NCBI GenBank assembly: GCA_937124525.1
Contig: CAKZLA010000529.1
Span: 1-24,238, forward strand
Reading direction: 5' to 3'
Source of the DNA: an uncultured Desulfobacterium sp.
Lineage (GTDB): Bacteria; Desulfobacterota; Desulfobacteria; Desulfobacterales; Desulfobacteraceae
DNA: 24,238 bases
This document shows positions 10,393 through 24,238 of the stretch, piece by piece. The notes under the pieces are model-generated. The model was not told the origin of the DNA. It saw only the letters and a list, made by a program, of their open reading frames with translations, and ran no database searches. Made by a program: the position numbers and the translations under genes. Position 1 is the stretch's first letter; every line of letters starts with the position of its first letter.

Positions 10393-10621
10393 CAAAACAG
10401 ATGGCCTTCCAGCAATTCTAATTTTGGATGTTCGGGATGATTCTTATGTCTCCGGGATCAAGTTTTGTCGTGGCAGGCCGGGTCCAGAATACAGTCTGCC
10501 TGTGGGAGTTATCTGGAAATTTCGAAATTAAAATGATGATATGGAAATATTCTATACCATGATCGGGAATCATTGTTATTATCATTTTGACATGAAATTC
10601 TAATGCCTTATGATTTCTTTC

Positions 10622-11461
10622 ATGGAAATAAAATATATACATGAAAAGGGTTCCGGCCGGATAAATGAAGATACGCTCCATCTGGGAAAAGAGCTGTTCG
10701 GTGTCTTTGATGGTGCCACAAGCCTTAATACCTCCTTATTTCAGCAAGGACTCACCGGGGGGAGAATTGCCGCTGATACGGCATGTCAAGTGTTTGCCAA
10801 AAACAGCTATCCCCTGGTAGAGCTGGCAAAGAGGGCCAACCGACAAATATATGATGCCATGATAGCCCAGGGACTTAATTGCAGCAGTCGGGACCAGCTA
10901 TGGAGTACCAGTGCTGCCGTGGTCAGGATAAAAAATAATTTTGTGGAATGGCTTCAATCCGGAGATTCCTTTGTGCTTTTCCTGTACCGTGACGGGTCAT
11001 ACAATGTACCGGTGAAGATTCCAGATCATGATTATGAGACACTTTCCATGTGGAAGGAAGTGGCCTGGAAGAGTAAGGTGAACATCAGCTGTGCATTGGC
11101 GGGTCAAATTAAAAAAACCCGCATGGAAATGAATCGTTCCTATGGGGTCCTCAATGGAGAGCCCTCAGGGGAAGGCTTTCTTCATTGGGGAAAAGAACCC
11201 CTGGCCCCGTTGGAAGAAATTTTATTGTTCACAGATGGTTTGTCCCTTCCCACGGAGATACCCACCAGAACCCGTCAATTTGATGGTCTGGTGTCCCATT
11301 ATCGCAGCCTTGGGCTGGAAGGGCTTAAAACCCATATCCGTCATCTTGAAGCAAAAGATCCCCAATGTCGCAGATTCCCCCGTTTTAAATGTCATGATGA
11401 CATCGCAGCCATTTCCATTCGTCCCATTGCCTCTGGTTTTCCCAGGGATTACATGATTTGA
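10622..11461 (+). CDS. PP2C-family serine/threonine phosphatase
   Basis: This is a metal-dependent protein phosphatase of the PPM/PP2C family, cytoplasmic, about 279 residues. The family's metal-binding aspartates are seen in order: GRINEDTLHLG (near residue 17), GVFDGATSL (near 30), a central SGDSFVLFL, LLFTDGLSLP (near 205) and the C-terminal CHDDIAAISI. All key Asp positions look intact, so it should be active. The ATG at 10622 starts at MEIKYIHEKG, which fits the family. An ATG at 10610 would add four residues. Neither has a clear ribosome-binding site. It has no membrane segment or sensor domain. No Ser/Thr kinase or anti-sigma gene is adjacent, so its partner is unknown. Its end overlaps the end of the convergent glycosyltransferase gene by 13 bp. 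Confidence 0.85.
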   Translation: MEIKYIHEKGSGRINEDTLHLGKELFGVFDGATSLNTSLFQQGLTGGRIAADTACQVFAKNSYPLVELAKRANRQIYDAMIAQGLNCSSRDQLWSTSAAVVRIKNNFVEWLQSGDSFVLFLYRDGSYNVPVKIPDHDYETLSMWKEVAWKSKVNISCALAGQIKKTRMEMNRSYGVLNGEPSGEGFLHWGKEPLAPLEEILLFTDGLSLPTEIPTRTRQFDGLVSHYRSLGLEGLKTHIRHLEAKDPQCRRFPRFKCHDDIAAISIRPIASGFPRDYMI

Positions 11462-12690
11462 GATTGTGCACTTTTAAGGGCTTTTTGATAGACTTTTTCC
11501 ACCCTGATGAACACCTGTTTCCAGGTGTGGGATTTTGTCAGTTCCGGGCTCATTTTTAAATTGTGTGTGGGATTATTAATGACTTGGCTTATGGCATCGG
11601 TCAAGGCTTTTTCAAGACGTTTATCAAGAAGATTCATGTCTTTTTCAAAGGGCCGATCCACTGTCTCAAGCAGGGGAAGCTTCACCCAGGATATCATAGG
11701 GGAGCTTGTGTGACCCAGTACCTCCCGTGTACCGGGAAGGGTGGTGGTGATAACCCTGCAACCGCAGGCAAGTGCCTCCATGAGTACCAGGGGAACGCCT
11801 TCAAAAAAAGAAGGCAGTACAAAAATATGGGTATCACGCATCAATTGGGCCAACTCCTGGTGGGGCAAAGGACCATGAATCACCACCCGGTTCCCCAGAT
11901 CCCGGGCCCGTTGAAGACACATCTCTTTCTCAGGACCGGAGCCATCTCCGGCCAAATGAAGTCTCCAGGGTAGATGCCTCTGTTTTTTCAATACCGTTAA
12001 CAGCCATGGCAGCCCCTTGGCCTGGCAAAGTTTGCCAGCATAAAGAAGCTCCACACTTTTTGTGGATGGTTTGGGACCCGGATGGAAAAGGACGTCGTTA
12101 AACCCGATACCCACCACATCAATGTTCCGGGAATCCACCTGGTACAGTGTGGTAATTTCCTGCTTTTGATGGTGGCTCAGGGCCATGATTCTGTTGATTT
12201 TTCTACACCTGTTTTTAGTATGCCCGGTGAGATCTCCGCAGTTGGCATACTGGCGCAGGCAGGTCCCATGGCAGGTGGTGACCATGGGAATATCCGGTGC
12301 CACCCCACAGGCCGTGGCCGTCATGATCCAGAGGTGATGGCTATGAATTATGTCCGGTTTGAATTGTTTGACAGCCCTTTTAATGGTCTTTTTAAATGTA
12401 TTTTCGTACTGACAGACCTGGCTAACGGTCATTTGAGAAAATACGGTGCTGGAGTAAGGCATCACATCGCTCATGCCGGGCAGGGCAAAGGGCAGAGCCG
12501 GGGTGTTGAATTTGACAAAAAGAGTGTTTTCCCGGGGAATAAGATGGCTGGTCAGGGAAAAATCGCCCTGAACACCCGCCACCAGGTAATTTTGATGCCC
12601 ATTTTCTGCGGCACAGGAAAGAAGTGCCTGGAGATATTTGCCACTTCCGGTGAAGTCTGGCGTTTGACTGATGAGATGAAGAATTTTCAT
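11449..12690 (-). CDS. Glycosyltransferase, GT4 family (GT-B fold)
   Basis: It transfers a sugar from a nucleotide-sugar donor, probably for a surface polysaccharide or glycolipid. The 413 residues have an N-terminal acceptor domain (MKILHLISQTPDFTGSGKYLQ, with the glycine-rich loop), an IIHSHHLWIMTA segment, and the C-terminal donor domain opening ELLYAGKLCQAKGLPWLL. The retaining GT4 E-x7-E motif is in FEGVPLVLMEALACG. The start at 12690 is chosen because it gives the canonical 'MKILHL' N-terminus. A TTG at 12741 would add 17 residues with no ribosome-binding site. Its C-terminus overlaps the convergent PP2C gene. No other polysaccharide gene is next to it, so acceptor and product are unknown. 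Confidence 0.88.
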   Translation of the reverse strand: MKILHLISQTPDFTGSGKYLQALLSCAAENGHQNYLVAGVQGDFSLTSHLIPRENTLFVKFNTPALPFALPGMSDVMPYSSTVFSQMTVSQVCQYENTFKKTIKRAVKQFKPDIIHSHHLWIMTATACGVAPDIPMVTTCHGTCLRQYANCGDLTGHTKNRCRKINRIMALSHHQKQEITTLYQVDSRNIDVVGIGFNDVLFHPGPKPSTKSVELLYAGKLCQAKGLPWLLTVLKKQRHLPWRLHLAGDGSGPEKEMCLQRARDLGNRVVIHGPLPHQELAQLMRDTHIFVLPSFFEGVPLVLMEALACGCRVITTTLPGTREVLGHTSSPMISWVKLPLLETVDRPFEKDMNLLDKRLEKALTDAISQVINNPTHNLKMSPELTKSHTWKQVFIRVEKVYQKALKSAQSQIM

Positions 12691-12878
12691 GGAATATATA
12701 TACTGAAATTTCTCTTTTTTGAAACCTAAAAGTTTTATCAACGCACCAGAGCGTCTGTTAGGAATTCGTTTTTCTTGACTTTTTAGCTGTTTTTTGATTA
12801 CTTCTGACTTTTTAGTACACTATTTTATGATGTGAGTTCAGAACTACTTGAACGGTTAAAAAAGGCAGATAAAATTCT

Positions 12879-13557: not shown

Positions 13558-15159
13558 TCAAGTTTTACCCCAAAAGCCACAAACCTGTTTCCACCATGCG
13601 AATAAAATTGTAGTCAGGAGACAGAACCACGCGAACAGATCCCCATGCTTGGTATAAAAACTCATCAAATTAACACAGGGAACCGCCTGGGTCAGGGTGG
13701 TTTTTTCAAAAAGAGCGCTGGTGCCTGTAATTTTGCCCCTGGGATCAATAAAGCCACTAATGCCTGTGTTGGCGGCCCTTGCAACACTTCTTCTGTTTTC
13801 AACGGCCCGGAATACGGCCATGGAAAAATGCTGCAAGGGGGCAGATGTTCGACCAAACCAGGCGTCATTGGTCATGGTTACCAGCAGATTTGCCCCATTT
13901 TTCACCACGGTTGAAGCAAGTTCAGGAAAAATAATTTCAAAGCAGATGAGTATCCCGGCGCGATTTTTTTTAAATGCCAGGGGCTTGGCACCTGTTGGTC
14001 CCGGTGAAAAATCACCTGCCTGGGAGGTCAGTTTGTCCAGAAAGGTTAAATACTTTCCAAAGGGAACGTACTCACCAAAGGGAACCAGGTGGCTTTTGTC
14101 ATAGAATTCATTGACGGTGGCCCGGGGGGTGAGCATATATGCCCGGTTGAAAAATTGAAAATCATCCTCCCCCAAAAGAGAAAAGGCCGGGCTGCCAATG
14201 AGAAACCATGCATTGCACTGACGTATACACGCATCCACCCCATCGGATATCTCCTTGTCCCAGGTATAGTAAAAGGGCAATGCCGTTTCCGGCCATATGA
14301 TAAGATCCCTTGCCTGGCCCGGAACAGACGTCTGGGAGAGTTGACAATAGGTTGATACAGTTTCAGTTTTATAGGCTTCATCCCATTTTTCTGCCTGGGG
14401 AATATTGCCCTGGATAACCGAAATAATTGGTTTCGGGGATTGGGCCATGGTCGTTTCCATGGTTGCAAGTCTTCCATGTCCATAGATCATTATTCCCATT
14501 ATCGCAAGAATAAGCACCCCCCCCCAGACACCCAAAGCAGTTGCCTGGACCCTTCTGGTTTTAGAAGGGGCTTTTCTGGTTTTAAAAAGATGCCATGCCA
14601 TGGCCAGGGTGATATTGACCATTACAATGATGAACGAAATGCCGTAAACACCGGTGATGTCGGCGATCTGGATCAGATTTATGTTCAGATACTGGGAATA
14701 TCCTGCCAGGCCCCAGGGAAACCCGGTGAATAATTTTGCCCTTATAAATTCAAGTGCCACCCACGCAAGAGACGCTTTTAACGGCAGTAAGGTAGGGATT
14801 TTTTTATGGGAATAATCTCTGGAAATGATCAGGCAAAACAGACCCGGGTAAAGGGCCAGGTAGAACACCATTAAAAGAAGCACAGGCAGTGCCAGCAAAA
14901 TGGGTAAATTTCCATAAATACGAAGGGTGGGCAGTATCCAGTAAATCAAAGATAAAAAATGCATCATGCCCATGGCCAGTCCCATCCTGAAGGCCTGGCC
15001 AGGGGCTGCCCCCCTTATGGATACCACAAGGGGAATCAGTGCTCCCCATGCCAGCCAGTCCCACTGGGTGCCAGGAAAGGCAAGGGTCATGAGATAACCG
15101 CTCATCAGTGCTGGAAAATATCGCACCAGTAATTCCGGAAGAGATCGGAGAAAATTCAT
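13558..15159 (-). CDS. lnt: Apolipoprotein N-acyltransferase
   Basis: This inner-membrane enzyme adds the third acyl chain to the N-terminal cysteine of lipoproteins, the last step of lipoprotein maturation in Gram-negative cells. The 533-residue protein has an N-terminal half of about seven membrane spans, then a periplasmic nitrilase-like domain. The catalytic triad is visible: Glu291 in IWPETALPF, Lys355 in YDKSHLVPFGEYVPFG and Cys406 in GILICFEIIFPE (CFE rather than the commoner CYE). MTNDAWFG and AANTGISGFIDPRG are conserved, and a final membrane helix closes the protein. The ATG at 15159 lies 7 nt after the stop of the upstream histidine kinase, so the two are probably one operon. A longer in-frame reading to 15318 overlaps the kinase gene and lacks family similarity. 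Confidence 0.95.
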   Translation of the reverse strand: MNFLRSLPELLVRYFPALMSGYLMTLAFPGTQWDWLAWGALIPLVVSIRGAAPGQAFRMGLAMGMMHFLSLIYWILPTLRIYGNLPILLALPVLLLMVFYLALYPGLFCLIISRDYSHKKIPTLLPLKASLAWVALEFIRAKLFTGFPWGLAGYSQYLNINLIQIADITGVYGISFIIVMVNITLAMAWHLFKTRKAPSKTRRVQATALGVWGGVLILAIMGIMIYGHGRLATMETTMAQSPKPIISVIQGNIPQAEKWDEAYKTETVSTYCQLSQTSVPGQARDLIIWPETALPFYYTWDKEISDGVDACIRQCNAWFLIGSPAFSLLGEDDFQFFNRAYMLTPRATVNEFYDKSHLVPFGEYVPFGKYLTFLDKLTSQAGDFSPGPTGAKPLAFKKNRAGILICFEIIFPELASTVVKNGANLLVTMTNDAWFGRTSAPLQHFSMAVFRAVENRRSVARAANTGISGFIDPRGKITGTSALFEKTTLTQAVPCVNLMSFYTKHGDLFAWFCLLTTILFAWWKQVCGFWGKT

Positions 15160-15166
15160 GGATGGG

Positions 15167-16747
15167 TTAGGCCTGTTGCCTTTCTTTTGCTTGTACGGGG
15201 TTGTCATGGGAAGGATCAGGATGATCAGATAAGGGGATATTGTCTGTGGGAAGTATGATGGTGAATATGGCGCCACCATGGGGTACATTGCCTGCTTGAA
15301 GTATCCCACCGTGCTCATGAATTGAGTCAGAACAGATGGTCAAGCCCACGCCCATGCCCAGTTTCTTCTTTGTTGTGAAAAAGGGGATAAATAAATTGGG
15401 CAGCACATTTTCTTTAATTCCGGGGCCGTTGTCTTGGAATTGAATGACAATTGTCTTCTGGTGACAGCGGGTCTGAATCTTAATTTCAGGTGTTCTGGGT
15501 TTTCCTTTTTCAGCAGGGGCATCATCGGCCATGGCCTCCAGGGAATTGTTGATGAAATTGATGAATACGTGGCTGAGCAGTTGGGAAGACGCCAATATAT
15601 GTGGTATGCCGGGTTCAAGGTCCAAGTGAATGGTCCCCCCTGCCTTTGCCACTTGTGTGTTAAAAAGAGAGAGGGTATTGGAAATGAGTTGATTAATATT
15701 AATATGGGATTTCTCAAGTCCGCTGGGGCGGTTCAGGTCCATGAGATTCTTTACGGTTTTTTTGATGGATTGAAGTCCTGTGTCAATACTTTCAAGCTCT
15801 TCCAGGGTTTCACTGTCCTTTGGTACTTCTTCTTTCATTAGTTCCACCAGGGAAAAAATGCCCTGGAGCGGTGAGTTGATCTCATGGGCAACGGTGGTGG
15901 CAAGCTGTCCGGCGGCGGCAAATCGTTCTGTTTTTGCCAGCCGCTTATTCATCTCCATCAACTTGCTGGTGCGTTCCCTGACAGCCTCCTCAAGTTCATC
16001 ACTTAATATGGTGATTTCCTGGAGACGATGGGTCATTTGGTTGAAGTTCCGGGCAAGTTCACCCAGTTCATCGTTGGATTCCACCTCTATAATGGTTTTC
16101 AGATCCCCCTGTCCCACCCGCCTGGTGCCATCAGTCAGACTTTTAAGGGGACGGGTCAGGCTATGGGTCAGTATCATTAATGCCACTGCCATGACCATGG
16201 CTCCCAACAATCCGGTGATCCATACTAAGGGTTTTATGCGCTGGGCTGCACCGAAAAATTCTTTCAGGGGATCTGTGGCAATGATAAACCATTCCCAGGG
16301 TTCAAAATAACCATAAAAGGCAAGATTATAGCCTTTGTCTGAGAGATAGGTAACGGTTCCCCTTTGTTTTCTTAATTGTTGGAACCAGGTTTCACCTGCC
16401 ACATTATACCCCACCAGGGAGAGATTCGGGTTGAAAACAATGCGGCCCTGTTTATCCACGGCAAAGATATATCCCTGTTTTCCCACCCCAATGCTGCTGA
16501 TCTCTTTTTCCGCATCCATTTTGGCTTTTAAAACGCTGGCCGGGATGCTCTCCAGATCGTATTTTTTTAAATTATCATTTTGCTGTTCAGCAATATGAAT
16601 GGCTTCGGATAAGCGAGTTTCAAGCCATGTGGTTGCCAGGTTTGTCAGGGCCTTTGAGGTGAAATGGGAGTGGATAAGACCGATAATGATCAGCAGAAGG
16701 AGACCCATGGGCAGAAGTGTCAGGAGAATTTTATAATAAATTTTCAT
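15167..16747 (-). CDS. Sensor histidine kinase with periplasmic Cache domain and HAMP
   Basis: This membrane kinase senses an extracytoplasmic signal and passes phosphate to a response regulator. Its 526 residues show: transmembrane helix (about 7-27), a single Cache domain (about 30-165, with GYIFAVDKQGRIVFNPN and a WEWFIIATDP end), second helix (about 172-194), HAMP (about 195-250), a coiled-coil linker, HisKA with phosphoacceptor His288 in TTVAHEINSPLQG, and HATPase_c. The ATPase N-box is INFINNSLEAM (about 396-406), G1 is DNGPGI (439-444), the F-box FTTKK, and G2 GMGVGLTI (464-471). It looks fully active. No response regulator is adjacent; the next gene is lnt, 7 nt away, so the regulator must be encoded elsewhere. 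A link to envelope stress would be speculation. Confidence 0.93.
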   Translation of the reverse strand: MKIYYKILLTLLPMGLLLLIIIGLIHSHFTSKALTNLATTWLETRLSEAIHIAEQQNDNLKKYDLESIPASVLKAKMDAEKEISSIGVGKQGYIFAVDKQGRIVFNPNLSLVGYNVAGETWFQQLRKQRGTVTYLSDKGYNLAFYGYFEPWEWFIIATDPLKEFFGAAQRIKPLVWITGLLGAMVMAVALMILTHSLTRPLKSLTDGTRRVGQGDLKTIIEVESNDELGELARNFNQMTHRLQEITILSDELEEAVRERTSKLMEMNKRLAKTERFAAAGQLATTVAHEINSPLQGIFSLVELMKEEVPKDSETLEELESIDTGLQSIKKTVKNLMDLNRPSGLEKSHININQLISNTLSLFNTQVAKAGGTIHLDLEPGIPHILASSQLLSHVFINFINNSLEAMADDAPAEKGKPRTPEIKIQTRCHQKTIVIQFQDNGPGIKENVLPNLFIPFFTTKKKLGMGVGLTICSDSIHEHGGILQAGNVPHGGAIFTIILPTDNIPLSDHPDPSHDNPVQAKERQQA

Positions 16748-17370
16748 TGTATTGTTTTTTCTCCCCTTATGCTCTCGTCAGTTATAGGTTTTCATTGTTG
16801 TCAACAAATAATCCATTTAGCTAAAAGCAAAAACGTAAATATTGGGTTGATAATGTAAATATTTGGCAAGTTCCCCATATTCGCCTAAGGTTGGGACTGC
16901 GTAGCATACTAATGCTATGTGAGCAGGCCAAACTTAGGTGAAGATGGGGCTCTGGCAGAATATTTACGCAAAAACGCTACATGTCGTATAAAGAACAATA
17001 GCTTACGACGCATGATGTCTGCTGATGGGCAGAGAAATCTGTCTGTCAATCAAAGCCCTGGGCGACAAGTTGTACTTGAATAGTAAAAACATACCGTTGC
17101 AGGGGTGTCAATCTTTATTCAATCATTGCCAATTGAGGAATGATGGCGCAAATGGGAGATCGCTCATAATGCCAATTGCTTGGGCTTCATCAATTGTCAA
17201 GAGTGGATGATGTTTGTGATTAAGAGCCTTTTCAAAAAGTCAACCCCCCCAAAAGCAAGAGTGCAGGGTATTGTAGATATTTTGCAAGAACGTGTTTCTG
17301 CAATTAGCTGATATTATTGCCATCTCATTGGGAGAGCCTGTTTAAAATTCAGGATCTAAGTCTTAGAATA
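16748..17370. other. Non-coding stretch upstream of the histidine kinase
   Basis: This stretch of about 620 bp has no convincing gene. It holds the palindromic insertion at 16835-16967 and presumably the kinase promoter near 16750-16830. A minus-strand open segment at 17123-17239 could be a decayed C-terminus (it includes LLTIDEAQAIGIMSDLPF), but it is only 38 codons and I do not recognise it. A run of seven C at 17244-17250 is also notable. The base composition is more AT-rich than the flanking lnt and kinase genes. Confidence 0.5.
16835..16967. mobile_element. 133-bp palindromic MITE-like element with 8-bp target duplication
   Basis: The direct repeat GCAAAAAC occurs at 16827-16834 and 16968-16975, exactly flanking a segment that starts GTAAATATT (16835-16843) and ends with its reverse complement AATATTTAC (16959-16967). 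A second GTAAATATT at 16855-16863 begins a long imperfect palindrome with the right end. CCCCAT pairs with ATGGGG, CCTAAG with CTTAGG, and the tip is TAGCAT (16902-16907), loop ACTA, ATGCTA (16912-16917). It could extrude as a cruciform or fold as a long RNA hairpin. It encodes nothing. GTAA/TTAC ends and 8-bp duplication resemble the 102-bp element at 4256 and IS66-type insertions. Confidence 0.65.
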
Positions 17371-17405
17371 AAAAAAGGGTTTGCAGAAAAAATCTGCAAA
17401 CCCTT
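17371..17405 (-). terminator. Strong intrinsic terminator, original tRNA-Val terminator
   Basis: A 13-bp perfect stem (17375-17387 with 17393-17405; core AGGGTTTGCAGA / TCTGCAAACCCT) has a 5-nt loop. On the minus strand it is followed by a T-run (plus-strand A-run 17371-17376 and just before). It lies 9 nt after the CCA of the tRNA-Val fragment in the same orientation, as expected for the native terminator of that tRNA gene. Confidence 0.85.
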
Positions 17406-17414
17406 GAATTCTTA

Positions 17415-17457
17415 TGGTAAGCACGAGCAGGCTCGAACTGCTGACTTCTACCGTGTC
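17415..17457 (-). other. 3' fragment of tRNA-Val(GAC): attachment-site remnant
   Basis: Read on the minus strand, this is a tRNA from the anticodon to the encoded CCA: GAC anticodon (17457-17455), A37 and C38, anticodon 3' stem GGTAG (17452-17448), variable loop AAGTC, T-stem AGCAG (17442-17438), T-loop TTCGAGC (17437-17431), T-stem CTGCT (17430-17426), acceptor strand CGTGCTT, discriminator A and CCA (17417-17415). The match stops at the anticodon: position 33 is C instead of the invariant T, and the next bases (TCACA) cannot pair with GGTAG. No D-arm or 5' acceptor strand is present, so it is not a working tRNA. Elements that integrate by tyrosine recombinase at a tRNA anticodon loop leave exactly this copy at their far end. 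Confidence 0.8.
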
Positions 17458-17486
17458 GATGTGATAAGCGACTGTTTTCATTATAT

Positions 17487-17825
17487 TTGAAATTTATTGT
17501 GACCACCTGTAAGCCTTTATTTGCAATCCTCTCCTGCCTTTTTGTTTTTTTCTATTTTTGCCCACTTTTTTTGAACCGGTCTCTATTTGGTCACCATTTG
17601 CGACGCATTGCGTCAGCTGAAATTCTCAATATCAGGAAAGCCCATAGCCGTGTATTGGAAAAGGCCCTGGGGCCACCACCGAAACAGCGTAAATTCAGGA
17701 AGACTAAGAACCCAGAGAAGCAGACAATGCAACTACCCGTTGAATATCGGGTTGGCTCTGCCATTGGATCAGCAATCAGACAGGCCAGGGCAACCGGTCA
17801 GAAATCGAGGCCGGAAAAGTTCTAG
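17487..17825 (+). CDS. Hypothetical ORF at the island edge
   Basis: This is an open frame of 112 codons opening with TTG and lacking a clear ribosome-binding site. The first 30 residues are hydrophobic and Phe/Cys-rich (LFAILSCLFVFFYFCPLF); the rest is basic, ending RQARATGQKSRPEKF, with a LEKALGPPPKQRKFRK centre. I recognise no family. If real, it could be a small membrane-anchored basic protein, but the hydrophobic part comes from a T-rich tract that may simply be AT-rich non-coding DNA. A shorter version could start within the basic part. It may be a decayed gene left at the end of the integrated element. I treat it as doubtful. Confidence 0.25.
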   Translation: MKFIVTTCKPLFAILSCLFVFFYFCPLFLNRSLFGHHLRRIASAEILNIRKAHSRVLEKALGPPPKQRKFRKTKNPEKQTMQLPVEYRVGSAIGSAIRQARATGQKSRPEKF

Positions 17826-17905
17826 CACACTCGCATGTTTTTGCCACAAGCGTTACACCATCTTTTAGAGATCCCATTACAAAGCACCTAACCTGGACAA
17901 GCCAG

Positions 17906-17926
17906 AACCAAAAAGGTTTTTTGGTT
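17906..17926 (+). terminator. AT-rich hairpin downstream of the edge ORF
   Basis: AACCAAAAA (17906-17914) pairs perfectly with TTTTTGGTT (17918-17926) across a 3-nt loop, about 80 bp after the stop of the doubtful ORF ending at 17825. A short T-rich stretch follows. It may be a weak terminator that isolates the BREX operon from upstream transcription. Confidence 0.35.
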
Positions 17927-17968
17927 TTCTTGCCCAAATAACACGAAAATAAGAGATAAGGCTCTAAT

Positions 17969-18133
17969 GAGTCACAGGTGGAGGTGGTACGCCTGGGCAT
18001 CACGGGTGCAGGAATTGAAATGGTGACACGGGATTTTATCCGGGCTTACACGGCGCAGACCGCCATGGTGGGGGAAGGCTTGTACAGACCATTAAAAGCT
18101 AATCAGCTCTTTTGCAACGCTTCAACTATTTGA
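17969..18133 (+). pseudogene. Possible decayed gene fragment before brxA
   Basis: An open segment of 54 codons ends at TGA 18131-18133. Its composition looks coding (VEVVRLGITGAG, then EMVTRDFIRAY and GEGLYRPLKAN) but it has no good start and I recognise no family. A GTG at 17978 could start a 51-residue peptide. It is either the tail of a broken gene at the element's end or chance. Its TGA overlaps the candidate -35 box of the brx promoter. Confidence 0.2.
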
Positions 18134-18158
18134 CAATATATGTGTATTTCAGGGTACA
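18130..18158 (+). promoter_or_regulatory. Candidate distal brx promoter
   Basis: A perfect -35 box TTGACA (18130-18135) is followed after 17 bp by GGTACA (18153-18158), a poor -10. It lies about 55 bp before the TTG start of brxA. It is suggested by pattern only. Confidence 0.3.
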
Positions 18159-18168
18159 CAAAACCATG

Positions 18169-18196
18169 TTGTTAATATATGTATATATGCTATAGC
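18169..18196 (+). promoter_or_regulatory. Candidate proximal brx promoter
   Basis: TTGTTA (18169-18174) and TATAGC (18191-18196) are 16 bp apart in a very AT-rich alternating ATATAT tract directly before brxA. Transcription from here would begin near 18203, leaving either a very short leader for the TTG start at 18213 or about 60 nt for the ATG at 18264. This placement favours the ATG. Confidence 0.4.
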
Positions 18197-18263
18197 TTCA
18201 TCGGGCATCATTTTGAATGAATTTTTTACCCATTATGACAAAAGGCAACACTTTGACAATGAT

Positions 18264-18869
18264 ATGAATAATTCTGGCCTGAAAATTTATTCTGGTGACA
18301 TTGTTGCCGGCGCTTTGCTGATGGAGGAAAGCCGTAAAATTGCAGCCCTTTTACTTGGGAGAGACCACCCGGGAAGATGGCATCAGGCCATTGTCATTGA
18401 CAATATTCTCCAGAAAAGAAGTCCGAAATCAGCAAAAAGGCAGGCCCACCTGATCCGGGCAAGGCTGGCCCTGATGTCCAGGGATCTCTGGAACATCATT
18501 GTTGAAGGTTCTTCTGAAACCACATCCCAGGCCCTTCTGGCCGCATCCATCAGGCACAGCCGTTTGGTGGGTGATTTTATGGACACCGTTCTCCGTCTTC
18601 ATTGGCGCACCTTTAATAGACATATCACTCCTGCAGACTGGAAAGACCACCTGGATGCATGTGAACAGATCGACCCGCGTGTGGCATCATGGAAACCCTC
18701 AACCCGGGACAAGCTCCGGCAGGTGGTGTTCAGGATGCTGGCTGAATCCAGATACATTGACAACACTCGAACCTGCAGGCTCATGCCTGTATCCCTGGTC
18801 CCAGACCTCAGAAAATATCTTGTTAATCATAATGAGTCATACGTGCTGCAGTGTATGGACATCTGTTAA
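18264..18869 (+). CDS. brxA: BREX protein BrxA (DUF1819)
   Basis: BrxA is a small conserved protein of BREX (bacteriophage exclusion) systems, encoded at the head of the operon; its family is DUF1819. From the ATG at 18264 it has 201 residues, the usual size. The N-terminal YSGDIVAGALLMEESRKIA, a basic middle (RSPKSAKRQAHLIRARLALMS) and the helical C-terminal LRQVVFRMLAESRYID...LVPDLRKYLV region match the family as I know it. The open frame extends upstream to a TTG at 18213 (218 residues). Neither start has a strong ribosome-binding site, and the ATG is preferred by length and by the proximal promoter position. brxB begins 17 nt after its stop, so the genes form an operon. No BrxR-type WYL regulator lies upstream in the window. 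Confidence 0.87.
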   Translation: MNNSGLKIYSGDIVAGALLMEESRKIAALLLGRDHPGRWHQAIVIDNILQKRSPKSAKRQAHLIRARLALMSRDLWNIIVEGSSETTSQALLAASIRHSRLVGDFMDTVLRLHWRTFNRHITPADWKDHLDACEQIDPRVASWKPSTRDKLRQVVFRMLAESRYIDNTRTCRLMPVSLVPDLRKYLVNHNESYVLQCMDIC

Positions 18870-18886: not shown

Positions 18887-19462
18887 ATGCCCCTATTCAA
18901 AGACCGTTTAAATAAGATCATGGATCGCCTGACATCCGATGAACTGCTGTCCAATTCAGGACTCGGCAATGAAATCGGATTTTATATTTTTGACTATCCC
19001 CCAGAGTATGAACTGGAAATGAGAGAACATATAAGGTTTATCCTCGGCCACCTCCCCAAAGAAAAGCCCAACATCCGTGTCCGGAACATCAACCTGTTTG
19101 AGCTTATTCTGCAATACTTGGAAACCCGGAAGCTCCTGGATCGCGTGATGGATATCCAGAAAAAGAAAGGAGATGCGGCGGTTTTGAAGGCCCTTAAAGG
19201 CCCCCTGGATGCAAAAAAGGTCGCTGCCGTCTTTGTCGATGCTGCCAGGCCCGGGGAACAGGATTTGGTCCTGTTATCCGGCGTGGGCAGTGCATATCCC
19301 ATGCTCAGGAGCCACAATCTTTTGAACAACCTCCACCATGTGATGGGGGACACCCCGCTTGTCATGTTCTATCCCGGGGTCTTTACCGGGCAGGGACTCA
19401 GCCTGTTTGGTAAGCTCAAAGAATCAAATTATTACAGGGCATTTCAACTGGTTGCGCATTGA
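18887..19462 (+). CDS. brxB: BREX protein BrxB (DUF1788)
   Basis: BrxB is the second conserved small protein of BREX operons, family DUF1788, needed for defence and host methylation in studied systems though its biochemical role is unclear. The 191 residues are the normal length. Diagnostic parts are the N-terminal FYIFDYPPEYELEMREHI, the central NIRVRNINLFELILQYLE, and the C-terminal block containing SGVGSAYPMLRSHNLLNNLH, then PLVMFYPGVFTGQGLSLFG and NYYRAFQLV. The TAAGGA at 18875-18880 lies 6 nt before the ATG. It sits between brxA (17-nt gap) and brxC (66-nt gap), in the standard type 1 order. Confidence 0.92.
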   Translation: MPLFKDRLNKIMDRLTSDELLSNSGLGNEIGFYIFDYPPEYELEMREHIRFILGHLPKEKPNIRVRNINLFELILQYLETRKLLDRVMDIQKKKGDAAVLKALKGPLDAKKVAAVFVDAARPGEQDLVLLSGVGSAYPMLRSHNLLNNLHHVMGDTPLVMFYPGVFTGQGLSLFGKLKESNYYRAFQLVAH

Positions 19463-19528: not shown

Positions 19529-22500
19529 ATGCAGATTCAATCTATATTCAAAAAGGACATCTCACGCCCCATTAACGGCGTTGTAAAAGCAGATCAGCTG
19601 GATGAATCCGTTGTCTGGCAGGAACTGGACGAATATGTCGTGACCCGGGAGCTGGACCAACATTGCAGGGGATTCATGTCCGCCTATCTGGCCGCCATGG
19701 ACACTCCCAATGATCCTGTTATTGCCAACCGGATGGCAGTGTGGATTTCCGGTTTTTTCGGGTCGGGTAAATCCCATTTCCTGAAAATTCTGTCCTACCT
19801 GCTGGGAAACAAATATGCTGTTCACCCCGATACCGCTGCCCGGAAAAAAGCAGTGGAATTTTTTTCAGACAAGATCAAGGATCCCATGCTGCTGGCTGAT
19901 ATCAAACGGACAGAGCAGTTTTCAGCGGACGTTATCCTGTTCAACATCGACAGCCGTGCGGATGCTTCCGATAACAGGAGGGGGGCCATTCTTTCAGTAT
20001 TCTGGCGGCTTTTTAATGAGCATCTCGGTTTCAGCCCGGAATCGCTTCCCCTTGCCGAGATCGAGAGGTACCTTTCAAAAAAGGGGCAGTATGAGGCTTT
20101 CAAGGAGAAGTTCAAACAGATTTACGGTTTGGCCTGGGAGGATGAGCGGGATGCCTATACCCTGCTCCAGGATGAAATCGTTGAGGCTCTCTCCATTGTT
20201 CTTGACACAACACCGGAGGCAGCCCAGGACTGGTTTGAAAAAAATGAAGATGATTTTTCCCAGACAGTGGAGCGGTTTGCAAAACAGGTGAAAGCCTACC
20301 TGGACACCAAACCTTCCCATCACCGGGTAATTTTTCTGGTGGATGAAATCGGCCAGTTCATCGGTAGTGATACCCACCTGATGCTGAATCTCCAGACCAT
20401 TGTGGAAGATCTGGGCAGGATCTGCGGGGGCCGGGCCTGGGTGGTGGTCACCTCCCAGGAGGACATTGATGCGGTTCTCGGGGATATCAAATCCGCCAAG
20501 GCCAATGATTTTTCCAAGATCCAGGGCCGGTTCAATACGCGCCTGTCCCTGTCCAGCGCCAACACCGATGAGGTGATCCAGGCCCGGCTTTTGGAAAAGC
20601 ATGACAACGCCGCATCCGAACTGACCCATCTGTTCGACCAAAAGGGAGATATCCTTAAAAGTCAGCTCGGCTTTACCCATGACACCGCTACCCTGAATCT
20701 TTTTTCAACACCACAGGATTTTATCAACAACTATCCCTTTATCCCTTACCACTTCCAGCTGGTCCAGAAAATCTTTGAATCCATTCGAAAAGCCGGAGCC
20801 ACCGGTCTTCACCTGAGCCGGGGGGAGCGTTCCATGCTGGATGCTTTCCAGTCCGCAGCCATTAATATCGCCCATCGGTCCATCAACGCGCTGGTCCCCC
20901 TCCATGAGTTTTTTCCCTGCATTGAGAGTTTCCTGGACACTTCGGTAAAAAGAAGCATTGAGCAGGCAAAGGTCAATAATGGCTTGCAGGTTCCATTCGA
21001 TATCCAGATTCTCCAGACCCTTTTTCTCATCCGGTACGTGGACATCATCAAACCCAATGTGGATAATCTGGTGACCCTTTCCATTAATCAGGTGGACGCG
21101 GACAGAATTGTTTTGAAACAAAATATCGATGAAGCCCTGGTGCGCCTTGAAAAAGAAAATCTCATCAGCCGGAATGGGGATCTTTACTTTTTCCTGACCA
21201 ATGAGGAGCGGGAAGTCTCCCGGGAGATAAAGAGCATAGAAATTTCATCCCATGCTGAAACGGACCTTCTGGGTACGATTATTTTTGAAGATATTTTAAA
21301 AGGTAAAACAAAACATAAATACCTTCCTTATAAAAGGGATTATGCCTTCAACCGGATCTGTGACGACAAACCCTGGGGTAAAAAGCTGGAGCATGACCTG
21401 ACCCTTGAGATCATCAGCCCCATGCATGATCAGTATGTCGTATTAAATGTCGGCCAGTGCACCATGCACAGCCTTAATACCGAGGGGACGGTTCTGGTTC
21501 GGCTGGACAATGATCAGAATCTTTTCACGGATATCCGCACCTTTATTCAGACGGAAAAATACATCAAGGACAAGAGCGATGCGGCGGCGTCCACCAGCCT
21601 CAAGCAGATTCTGAGAGACAGGGCCGATGAAAACAGGGAAAGAAAAAACCGGCTGATTTCCAAAGTGGACGATCTCATCCAGGGGGCTGATTTCTATACC
21701 CTTGGAAAGTCTTACACCCCTAAAGTCTCCGGTAACTCAACCCGTGTCATTGAAAGCATGTTGGAACACGTTATCCAGAATATTTTTAGCAAATACAGCT
21801 ATCTTTCCCAGGCCCATGACGATCCGGTCAAAGAGATCAAACAGATACTGCTTTCTGACAATATCTCCCAGCAGCAGCTCCTGGATTTTGCCCAGGAAAC
21901 GCCCCATGATGTCAAAGAAATCGTCACCTATATCCAGCTCAAAGCCGCCACCCACAAAACCGTGGTTCTCAATGAACTGGTCAGCCATTTTTCCCGACGT
22001 CCCTATGGATGGCCCGAATTCCAGGTGGTGGTCCTCATCGCAAAGATTTTTATGGCCGGGACCATCCAGCTGCTCCATGAAAAGGATCGGTTACAGCCAA
22101 AGGATGCCATCCCTTTCCTGACCAAGACCTCCCAGTGGAAGCATGTCCAGATTTTGGAAAAGCCTGCTCTGTCATCGGGTGACCTGAAAAAGGCACAGCA
22201 ACTGGGAAAAGATCTTTTCGGAACCCTGGCCCCGGACGGTCAGGACAAAATCAGCGATTACATCAAATCCGGACTGAACCAATGGACAGTCCCACTGGAA
22301 AAATACCGGACACTTGCAGATACCGGTAATTATCCTGGGAAAAAAGAGATAGAAAGCTGCCTGAAAATCACCGACATTATTCTGGATATTCAGGATGCAT
22401 ATGAAGTGATAAAGGCCTTTATCCAGAATAAAGAAGACCTTTTGGATGCCCAGGAAGATTTTCTGGATCTGAAAGATTTTTATACCCATCAGCAGGGTAC

Positions 22501-23080
22501 TTGGGAGATCCTCCTGGCAGCCATGTTGAGATTTAAAACCAACGAAGTTGAAATTAATAAGGATGCAGGTGCCAAAAAAGCTTTCAACAAATTAAGCCAG
22601 ATTGTCGCTTCACAAAGACCTTATAATGAGCTCAAAAATGTCAGTGAGCTGATTTCAACAGTGGAAAGAATCAATACGCAAAAGGTGCAAGCCCATCAGG
22701 TAGCCGTCATAAATGAAATTGATGAAAAAGTCGCATGTCTGTTGGATCTGCTGGATGATAACAGTGCGGATGATGACTTCAGGAACAAAACCCTATATCC
22801 TCTTCAGATCTGTAAAAAAAAGATTGCCGATGAAAAAAGCATTCCCCAGATTGCATACAGCGTAAAAGAGGTCCAGGAAAAATATGAAAGTGCACTGGAT
22901 GCCATTGAAGAGGCATTCAGGCCGGATGATGATGTCAAAGAAATTAAAAACATAAAGCTTTCAAATCTCAATAAAAAGCCATATCTTGATAAAGAAGAAG
23001 ATGTGGAGGTGTTTGTTGACCGGGTAAAAAGTGAGCTGCTTGAAGCGGTCAGGAAACAATTTCGGGTCAGGGTTCAGTAA
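19529..23080 (+). CDS. brxC: BREX ATPase BrxC
   Basis: BrxC is the large P-loop ATPase of BREX, thought to assemble with other BREX components to methylate host DNA and block phage replication. The 1183 residues are close to the roughly 1200 usual. The N-terminal SIFKKDISRPINGVVKA block is typical, Walker A is GFFGSGKSH (75-83, Lys81), and Walker B is VIFLVDE (267-273, Asp272-Glu273) followed by IGQFIGSD. After the ATPase part (up to about 480) comes a long helical region with coiled-coil-like, charged C-terminal stretches. AAAGGA (19514-19519) lies 9 nt before the ATG. No frameshift or stop is seen, so the gene is intact. In type 1 loci pglX comes next; here an ATPase gene follows after 63 nt. 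Confidence 0.95.
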   Translation: MQIQSIFKKDISRPINGVVKADQLDESVVWQELDEYVVTRELDQHCRGFMSAYLAAMDTPNDPVIANRMAVWISGFFGSGKSHFLKILSYLLGNKYAVHPDTAARKKAVEFFSDKIKDPMLLADIKRTEQFSADVILFNIDSRADASDNRRGAILSVFWRLFNEHLGFSPESLPLAEIERYLSKKGQYEAFKEKFKQIYGLAWEDERDAYTLLQDEIVEALSIVLDTTPEAAQDWFEKNEDDFSQTVERFAKQVKAYLDTKPSHHRVIFLVDEIGQFIGSDTHLMLNLQTIVEDLGRICGGRAWVVVTSQEDIDAVLGDIKSAKANDFSKIQGRFNTRLSLSSANTDEVIQARLLEKHDNAASELTHLFDQKGDILKSQLGFTHDTATLNLFSTPQDFINNYPFIPYHFQLVQKIFESIRKAGATGLHLSRGERSMLDAFQSAAINIAHRSINALVPLHEFFPCIESFLDTSVKRSIEQAKVNNGLQVPFDIQILQTLFLIRYVDIIKPNVDNLVTLSINQVDADRIVLKQNIDEALVRLEKENLISRNGDLYFFLTNEEREVSREIKSIEISSHAETDLLGTIIFEDILKGKTKHKYLPYKRDYAFNRICDDKPWGKKLEHDLTLEIISPMHDQYVVLNVGQCTMHSLNTEGTVLVRLDNDQNLFTDIRTFIQTEKYIKDKSDAAASTSLKQILRDRADENRERKNRLISKVDDLIQGADFYTLGKSYTPKVSGNSTRVIESMLEHVIQNIFSKYSYLSQAHDDPVKEIKQILLSDNISQQQLLDFAQETPHDVKEIVTYIQLKAATHKTVVLNELVSHFSRRPYGWPEFQVVVLIAKIFMAGTIQLLHEKDRLQPKDAIPFLTKTSQWKHVQILEKPALSSGDLKKAQQLGKDLFGTLAPDGQDKISDYIKSGLNQWTVPLEKYRTLADTGNYPGKKEIESCLKITDIILDIQDAYEVIKAFIQNKEDLLDAQEDFLDLKDFYTHQQGTWEILLAAMLRFKTNEVEINKDAGAKKAFNKLSQIVASQRPYNELKNVSELISTVERINTQKVQAHQVAVINEIDEKVACLLDLLDDNSADDDFRNKTLYPLQICKKKIADEKSIPQIAYSVKEVQEKYESALDAIEEAFRPDDDVKEIKNIKLSNLNKKPYLDKEEDVEVFVDRVKSELLEAVRKQFRVRVQ

Positions 23081-23143
23081 TAATACAAGATGGGCTGATC
23101 TCCTGTGTGTATTTCAGCAGATCAATTATCTGAGAGGCAAAAG

Positions 23144-24238
23144 ATGAGAATAAAACAGCTAAGAGTTGACAACTTTAAATCCCTGGTTGATTTTGAGTTG
23201 CCCCTTTCAAAATTCAACTGCATCGTGGGGTTAAATGGAGCAGGTAAATCCACTGTATTGCAGTTTTTTGATTTTTTGTCTCAGCAGGTAAGGGGAGGGA
23301 TGAAAGAATGGTTAAAAAAAAGGCACTGGCAATCTTCCGATATTAATTCCAAGTTGACCAAAAAGCATAATGTGAATTTTGAAATTATGCTCAATGACTC
23401 CGAAAAGAATGACGTGCTCTGGTCGGCAAGTTTTAATAGAAGAACGCTGAGCTGCACTTCGGAAAAAGTCTACTACGATCATAAATTGATTTTGAAGGTT
23501 GAAGATGGACATTATTTAACTTCAAAAATGAAAATGTCGGCGCCTATTCCCTTTGAATACCAGGGCTCGCTGATGTCTCAAATTAAGGATTCCCAACTTC
23601 CAACCGAGGTGTTGGCACTTAAAAAATTTATTGAACGAGTTCATGCCCTGGATCTCCTGGCACCGGAATTGTTGCGACAAAAATCAAGAGAAACAGTGGA
23701 TACTATCGGTTTAGGTGGAGAAAGGCTGTCTGCGTTTTTATATGATATGGATGAAGATAAAAAGGAAAAGATTCTTGAAGCAATGACCAGCTGCTACCCG
23801 AGTTTGAAAGCTATTGAAATTACGGCAATGCGTCCTGGTTGGAAAAAAATGACTTTTGAAGAAGAGTTTTACAAGATGTCTTTAAAAACGGAAGCCAGAC
23901 ATGTTGCAGATGGATTTCTTCGATTGTTAGCTATTTTTGCTCAATTGTCAAAGAGACAAAATATTTTTTTGTTGGATGAGATAGAAAATGGCATTAATCC
24001 AGAGCTTATCGAATTTTTAATGGATTTTCTTGTTGGAGCTCCTCCTCAAATAGTTGTAACGACTCATAGCCCTATGATTTTAAATTATATTGAAGACCAT
24101 ATTGCTATTGAAGGTGTTGTCTATCTTTACAAGGATAAAACAGGAAAAACCCAGGCTGTCCGATTGTTTGATATTCCCTCCATGCGTGAAAAGTTAACTG
24201 TTATGGGGCCTGGAGAAGTTTATGAAGATACATTGCTG
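23144..24238 (+). CDS. AAA/ABC-type ATPase (AAA_21-like), 3' end outside the window
   Basis: This is an SMC/RecF-like ATPase of the kind common in defence islands. The 365 residues in the window start MRIKQLRVDNFKSL and have Walker A GLNGAGKST (29-37), a family signature near residues 254-265 (VADGFLRLLAIF, where relatives usually have SDG), Walker B IFLLDE (274-279) followed by IENGINPEL, and the switch His308 in VVTTHSPMIL. The start is firm: GAGAGG lies 6 nt before the ATG. The frame is open to the last base, and ATPases of this type usually end soon after such a GPGEVYEDT segment. It follows brxC by 63 nt, but base use is visibly richer in A/T than brxC. Relatives act as the sensor half of two-gene systems such as Septu or PARIS, so an effector gene may follow. 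Which one cannot be said. Confidence 0.88.
   Translation, partial: MRIKQLRVDNFKSLVDFELPLSKFNCIVGLNGAGKSTVLQFFDFLSQQVRGGMKEWLKKRHWQSSDINSKLTKKHNVNFEIMLNDSEKNDVLWSASFNRRTLSCTSEKVYYDHKLILKVEDGHYLTSKMKMSAPIPFEYQGSLMSQIKDSQLPTEVLALKKFIERVHALDLLAPELLRQKSRETVDTIGLGGERLSAFLYDMDEDKKEKILEAMTSCYPSLKAIEITAMRPGWKKMTFEEEFYKMSLKTEARHVADGFLRLLAIFAQLSKRQNIFLLDEIENGINPELIEFLMDFLVGAPPQIVVTTHSPMILNYIEDHIAIEGVVYLYKDKTGKTQAVRLFDIPSMREKLTVMGPGEVYEDTLL

Follow-up and report, generated by a model that had tools for sequence, protein, structure and literature searches.

The window analyzed here (the whole stretch of 24,238 nucleotides) very probably contains one end of an integrated element. With a probability that we put at about 0.92, the boundary between positions 17459 and 17460 is the attL of an element that carries BREX genes as cargo, produced by a tyrosine integrase at a tRNA-Val(GAC) gene. 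Coordinates of the features on both sides of this boundary are collected in Table 1.

Table 1. Features of the window on either side of the proposed attL
Feature	Positions	Strand	Basis
Sensor histidine kinase gene, chromosomal left flank	15167..16747	-	Pfam HisKA/HATPase_c/HAMP/Cache; protein 83% identical in G715
Native intrinsic terminator of the chromosomal tRNA-Val	17370..17405	-	13-bp stem, 5-nt loop, T run
Displaced tRNA-Val(GAC) 3' half	17415..17459	-	Sequence; whole gene in G715
Probable element side of the junction	17460..17486	-	ATATAATGAAAACA-GTCGC-TTATCACA; block common to the G722, G667, G608 and G742 junctions, with small differences
Probable attachment arm of the element	17460..17657	-	Local alignment scores versus 500 shuffles
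Degenerate repeat pair, 11-bp spacing (GGTGACCAaatAGAGACCG)	17577..17595	-	13/16 match at -138 from the core
brxA, first recognized gene inside the proposed element	18213..18869	+	Pfam BrxA 1e-51; PADLOC BrxA
brxB	18887..19462	+	Pfam BrxB 6e-42; PADLOC
brxC	19529..23080	+	Pfam BrxC domains; PADLOC BrxC-PglY
AAA_21/AAA_15 ATPase gene directly after brxC, running off the window end	23105..24238	+	Pfam AAA_21; PADLOC PDC-M25A

The tRNA half and the uninterrupted gene in a relative

Direct reading of the minus strand from 17459 to 17415 gave the 3' half of a tRNA-Val(GAC) gene, 45 nt long (TCGACACGGTAGAAGTCAGCAGTTCGAGCCTGCTCGTGCTTACCA). The fragment runs from the seven-base anticodon loop (TCGACAC) through the 3' side of the anticodon stem and the T arm to the 3' strand of the acceptor stem and the CCA end. 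It has the correct orientation for an Islander-type island, with its broken end facing the proposed element. An initial annotation, made from the sequence alone, had read this fragment from the anticodon to CCA (17457-17415); the fragment is real, but it begins two bases earlier, at 17459, where the loop starts. The strong terminator that was placed 9 nt after CCA was confirmed, with a perfect 13-bp stem (17405-17393 paired with 17387-17375) followed by a run of T residues. Folding of positions 17365-17465 (minus strand) gave a z score of -5.4 relative to 200 shuffles, to which the terminator contributes most. ARAGORN found no whole tRNA in the window, and an Rfam scan of the window gave nothing at gathering scores. 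Note that both scans also miss the known tRNA fragment and thus say little about further fragments.

The annotation further held that a GGG/CCC acceptor pair would be usual and that the CTT end of the fragment was a sign of drift in a non-functional copy. The first point was wrong. Among 22 intact relatives called by ARAGORN, the acceptor strands were AGGCGCG/CGTGCCT in 19 and the 3' strand ended in CCT in 21, making AGG/CCT the usual combination. The second argument is weak, since the fragment is a single substitution away from these strands (CTT instead of CCT), which would still form a G-U pair with the G2 of the relatives' 5' strand.

Relatives were sought using the lnt gene (13558-15318) in 395 genomes of the phylum, 373 of them matching at E ≤ 1e-20, and in a sample of 389 genomes of the order, 123 of them matching at E ≤ 1e-140. 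The order sample led to G715, the closest relative found, in which Lnt, the kinase and PrfB are 72%, 83% and 96% identical to the window proteins; a closer relative may exist outside the phylum and order samples. Positions 17371-17462 were used as a query against the 86 given genomes of the G715 family at E ≤ 1e-4, with the best 10 candidates per genome being scored, so that some second copies may have escaped notice. Matches were obtained in 75 of the 86 genomes, the best of them in G715 itself, and 20 stretches from 19 matching genomes were taken for closer reading.

Read rightward, G715 has the same kinase gene and terminator, then an uninterrupted tRNA-Val(GAC) gene (L050 4571-4646, minus strand), followed by a gene without a Pfam match and a polyprenyl synthetase gene, past which lie genes that we take to be rimO and htpG. 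The 92 nt of the query are 91% identical to the same place in G715 (E = 1.1e-29). The two terminators form the same hairpin with one stem base pair exchanged, and the tRNA half differs at 2 of 45 positions. BREX queries had no match at the G715 site, and no brxC match was found anywhere in the G715 genome at E ≤ 1e-100. The predicted empty site, that is, a relative lacking BREX in which a whole tRNA precedes the same terminator, therefore exists, and is located next to the same kinase gene. Because G715 carries the 17370-17405 terminator after its whole tRNA, the chromosome is assigned to the left of the break. With the terminator being chromosomal, the sequence from 17460 rightward, BREX included, would therefore be the element. 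The empty site also refutes the proposal that the fragment is a chance match to half of a tRNA, or a repeat other than a tRNA. No supporting point was found for such a match, and its probability is negligible given the E value in a single genome and the position retained next to this kinase gene.

The tRNA half and terminator are 91-96% identical to G715 at the DNA level, compared with 80-86% for neighboring shared stretches. Because of this difference, we infer that selection acted on the half until recently, and therefore that the break is recent relative to the split between the window and G715 lineages.

Other differences from G715 were observed in the left flank. A 133-bp palindromic repeat (16835-16967) has inverted ends GTAAATATT.../...AATATTTAC and is flanked by a perfect 8-bp duplication (GCAAAAAC). 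It is absent between the kinase and tRNA genes in G715. That genome has at least 40 copies (40 of 86 candidates scored); none was found in G722, G693, G726 or G733 at E ≤ 0.01. Flanking duplications in which 7-8 of 8 bases match were present for 15 of the 21 repeat copies examined, including that of the window. The repeat has the appearance of a MITE, a non-autonomous transposon, belonging to this genus. Positions 10610-12741, between prfB and the next shared gene, contain genes for a PP2C-like phosphatase and a glycosyltransferase, a segment missing at that place in G715.

Junctions, attachment arms and integrases in related genomes

An intact tRNA-Val(GAC) gene together with a displaced 3' half was found in at least 7 of the 86 family genomes. 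The two copies have the same orientation on one contig, 1.8-29 kb apart, in G722, G755, G733, G667, G649 and G608. In G742 they are located on separate contigs and have an unusual T-stem variant in common. For G772 and G768, an integrase adjoins the intact gene, and the displaced half was not found among the best 10 candidates per genome. Counting the seven genomes with paired copies and these two, at least 9 of the 86 tRNA-Val(GAC) sites are, or have been, occupied. The arrangement that had been predicted for the window island, with an intact tRNA beside an integrase and a displaced half at the other end, is thus seen in related genomes.

All eight displaced copies, including that in the window, match CA[C/G]AT[C/T]GACA[C/T]GG, whereas intact genes have the 5' anticodon-stem strand before the loop. 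The break at the anticodon loop that the annotation described therefore recurs at the same place in seven related junctions, with the same CA[C/G]AT beside it. Within the shared stretch, the loop is the probable place of strand exchange, because sequence identity ends there. Just outside the junction, a block resembling ATATAATAAAAACA-N5-TTATCA is present in the window, G722, G667 and G608, and with small differences in G742.

The 200 nt past the break in the window were aligned with the corresponding arms of the seven related junctions. The alignment with the G649 arm scored 58 (best of 500 shuffles, 34). Scores as good were obtained with 0 of 500 shuffles for both G608 and G667, with 1 of 500 for G722 and with 2 of 500 for G742, giving similarity to five of the seven arms. 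Those of G755 and G733 were not significantly similar (89 and 140 of 500 shuffles as good, respectively). Because the sequence on the broken side resembles the arms of related elements, BREX is placed inside the element, in agreement with the earlier argument from a broken end that faces right. A deletion or rearrangement might instead have broken the tRNA-Val gene with no integrative element involved, and the location of the element's right end beyond the window is compatible with this. It is nevertheless very improbable, because a plain deletion would give neither a break exactly as in seven related junctions, with the same CA[C/G]AT, nor an arm like five of the seven.

Both ends and an integrase were seen for five elements (G722, G755, G733, G649 and G742). 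At the displaced end of each, approximately 149/138 nt from the core, there are two direct repeats with a spacing of 11 bp; a second such pair lies immediately past the terminator at the integrase end. The repeats are versions of GCTACC, GTGACC or GTGCCC, and the version is identical at both ends of any one element (the GTGCCC pair of G742 lies outside the pattern used by the script and was read by eye). These pairs look like arm-type integrase sites. One such repeat is present in G608, and G667 and the window have degenerate ones only. The pair in the window is possibly a set of arm-type sites as well. By itself it should be considered modest evidence, since 25 pairs scoring at least 13/16 occur in the whole window on both strands.

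The tyrosine integrase of G722 is 360 amino acids long and has seven matches at E ≤ 1e-60 among the 86 family genomes. For all seven, the intact tRNA-Val(GAC) is on the C-terminal side, at a distance of 69 to 595 nt where the reading frame is unbroken. A Pfam Phage_integrase gene adjoins the intact tRNA in G722, G755, G733 and G649, and an integrase was recognized there by similarity in G742, G772 and G768. Across the order, matches were found in 39 of 389 genomes at 44 or more places (best five candidates per genome scored). The 44 places and that in G772 make 45, of which 32 have a readable locus and 13 have no locus. A tRNA was called on the C-terminal side of the integrase at 31 of the 32 readable loci: Val(GAC) 12, Val(CAC) 11, Arg(CCT) 3, Phe(GAA) 2, Gln(CTG) 1, Arg(TCG) 1 and Pyl 1. 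The last of these (L158) has the reverse orientation relative to the rest and is perhaps a false call; the remaining locus (L155) had no tRNA call on that side. With a tRNA call at 31 of 32 loci, this family targets tRNA genes as a rule, with the nearest relatives of the G722 enzyme using Val(GAC).

BREX and other cargo

What these sites contain differs between genomes. In G722 there are genes for a capsid protein, a DnaB-like helicase and the integrase, and a match to a terminase small subunit that falls below the Pfam cut-off; a terminase large subunit is encoded on the element side in G742. The cargo of G733 includes IetA- and IetS-like proteins, a DUF3987 protein and a ResIII-domain protein with a weak PADLOC match to type III restriction. 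An Abi_2/AbiD protein is encoded in G667, and an integrase fragment in G649. The cargo of G608 is a HigB-like toxin, whose match lies just under the Pfam cut-off, with an HTH/IrrE-like partner likened by PADLOC to PD-Lambda-2_B. The tRNA-Val(GAC) gene is a recurrent landing site in this bacterial group for varied cargo, anti-phage genes included.

The islands in G667 and G608 are only 1.8-2.4 kb long (L091 3898-6379 and L093 3701-5638) and contain no match to the G722 integrase at E ≤ 1e-60. Unlike the integrase-bearing elements, they have nearly the same terminator after the displaced and the intact copies. In G755, the chromosomal side of the displaced half (L088 13556-13660) carries a repeat pair (TTGTGACCATTTTGTGACC). 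Because this pair resembles an integrase-end arm, it suggests a second, tandem element at that site.

BREX type 1-like systems are defined by brxA, brxB, brxC, pglX, pglZ and brxL. The first three are present in the window in this order, with brxA starting approximately 750 bp from the junction. In one relative (L128 2867-4837), a PDC-M25A-type ATPase and PDC-M25B lie between brxC and pglX (a PglX homologue). Matches to brxC at E ≤ 1e-100 were found in 13 family genomes, seven of them close (64-76%) and six distant (29-35%). None of the seven close copies is beside a tRNA-Val(GAC) match; the flanks of five of the seven were scanned for tRNAs, and three of the seven are on contigs of only 11-27 kb. 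Because close relatives of brxC are not beside tRNA-Val(GAC), BREX is, as far as these genomes indicate, cargo with no fixed association with this site. In G427, a close relative of the window BREX operon lies 680 bp from tRNA-SeC, with several ACTGCCA-like repeats between them (L127 1957-2760). It may belong to an element that uses a different tRNA gene; the 28 kb examined there yielded no further copy of the tRNA-SeC end. Of the 86 genomes, G772 alone combines a close brxC with the integrase, on separate contigs. On its 11.4-kb BREX contig, no match to a tRNA or tRNA half that would link it to the integrase contig was found. Searches of viral contigs found neither brxC nor the exact junction pattern, and a kinase search of genome contigs for the other end of the element gave six distant matches, none with a tRNA call. 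The G+C content (0.466 left of the junction and 0.456 in the BREX part) is uninformative as a boundary test.

These data bear on another explanation, in which the half tRNA is the relic of an older element and BREX entered later by a different route, the junction not being its boundary. Relics of this kind do exist, given that the G667 and G608 junctions persist 1.8-2.4 kb from an intact copy with no integrase match at the above threshold, and both the degenerate arm repeats of the window and the location of close BREX relatives elsewhere, one of them near tRNA-SeC, would fit such a history. Against it, brxA begins close to the junction, no second copy of the tRNA half was found as a repeat in 16700-18300, and the identity values for the half and terminator relative to their neighbors speak for a recent break. 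We consider a relic improbable, though less so than a deletion.

Insertion model and comparison with known systems

In the favored model, the attP of the element would carry its own copy of the tRNA-Val(GAC) 3' half. As in the integrase-bearing relatives, where attP also has its own terminator directly after the tRNA half, a new terminator would be supplied with it. At the anticodon loop, the tyrosine integrase would recombine attP with the tRNA-Val(GAC) gene of the chromosome, displacing the old chromosomal 3' half and its native terminator, which would stay attached to the kinase-side DNA at the left. At the far right, the chromosomal 5' half and the 3' half brought by the element would together restore a functional tRNA, followed by the new terminator. 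Rightward from the junction, the left arm would extend from 17460 to approximately 17657, with the BREX operon following as cargo. The right end is predicted to be past position 24,238, where the intact tRNA-Val(GAC) would be accompanied by the terminator, paired repeats resembling TTGTGACC and a tyrosine integrase gene. Not in favor of this model are the dissimilar arms of G755 and G733, the degenerate repeats, the flat G+C content and the presence of close brxC genes elsewhere. A wider scheme, which we consider rather unlikely, is that a family of elements in these bacteria resupplies the complete 3' end of the tRNA-Val(GAC) transcription unit, both the tRNA half and a terminator of its own, and that one docking site serves prophage-like, satellite-like and defense elements. 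Cargo units lacking an integrase (Abi, the HigB-like pair and possibly the BREX unit) would then move in trans using a resident integrase.

If the attL assignment is correct, one BREX island boundary is fixed to the base, and the pairing of integrase and target predicts where the other end of the window island, and those of similar islands, should lie. The literature searched contained nothing on attP-borne terminators at tRNA anticodon sites. No published report of the tRNA-Val(GAC) site was found in searches on Desulfobacteraceae islands and on BREX with integrase in Desulfobacter, which is no proof of absence, and the parts seen of the Desulfotignum phosphitoxidans genome paper (PMC4046663) did not report the site.

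The window operon shares the BrxA, BrxB, BrxC order of known BREX operons (brxA-brxB-brxC ... pglX), but it has an AAA ATPase (PDC-M25A) after brxC, and the remainder of the operon is beyond the window. Relative to the elements in G722, G755, G733, G742 and G649, whose integrases belong to one family, the target gene and junction are the same. The arms of G649, G722 and G742 are similar to that of the window, whereas those of G755 and G733 are not significantly so. These elements differ in having satellite- or prophage-like or Iet/restriction cargo, and BREX was not found in them. In the portion of the Islander study consulted, a 3' fragment is listed for 3760 of 3919 islands and an anticodon-centered site for 2083 of 3919 (Table 1, PMC4383910). 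An excerpt of a review of archaeal tyrosine recombinases notes that the anticodon stem-loop resembles the 7-bp overlap and flanking core sites of a lambda-type attB (PMC8371274). The window resembles Islander islands, as presented there, in its displaced 3' tRNA fragment, and its relatives do so in their restored gene and tyrosine integrase; it differs in host group and in its tRNA-Val(GAC) target, with the left end alone being read here. An anticodon-loop tRNA island with defense cargo is a known type with a well-known insertion mechanism, to which this island is newly added.
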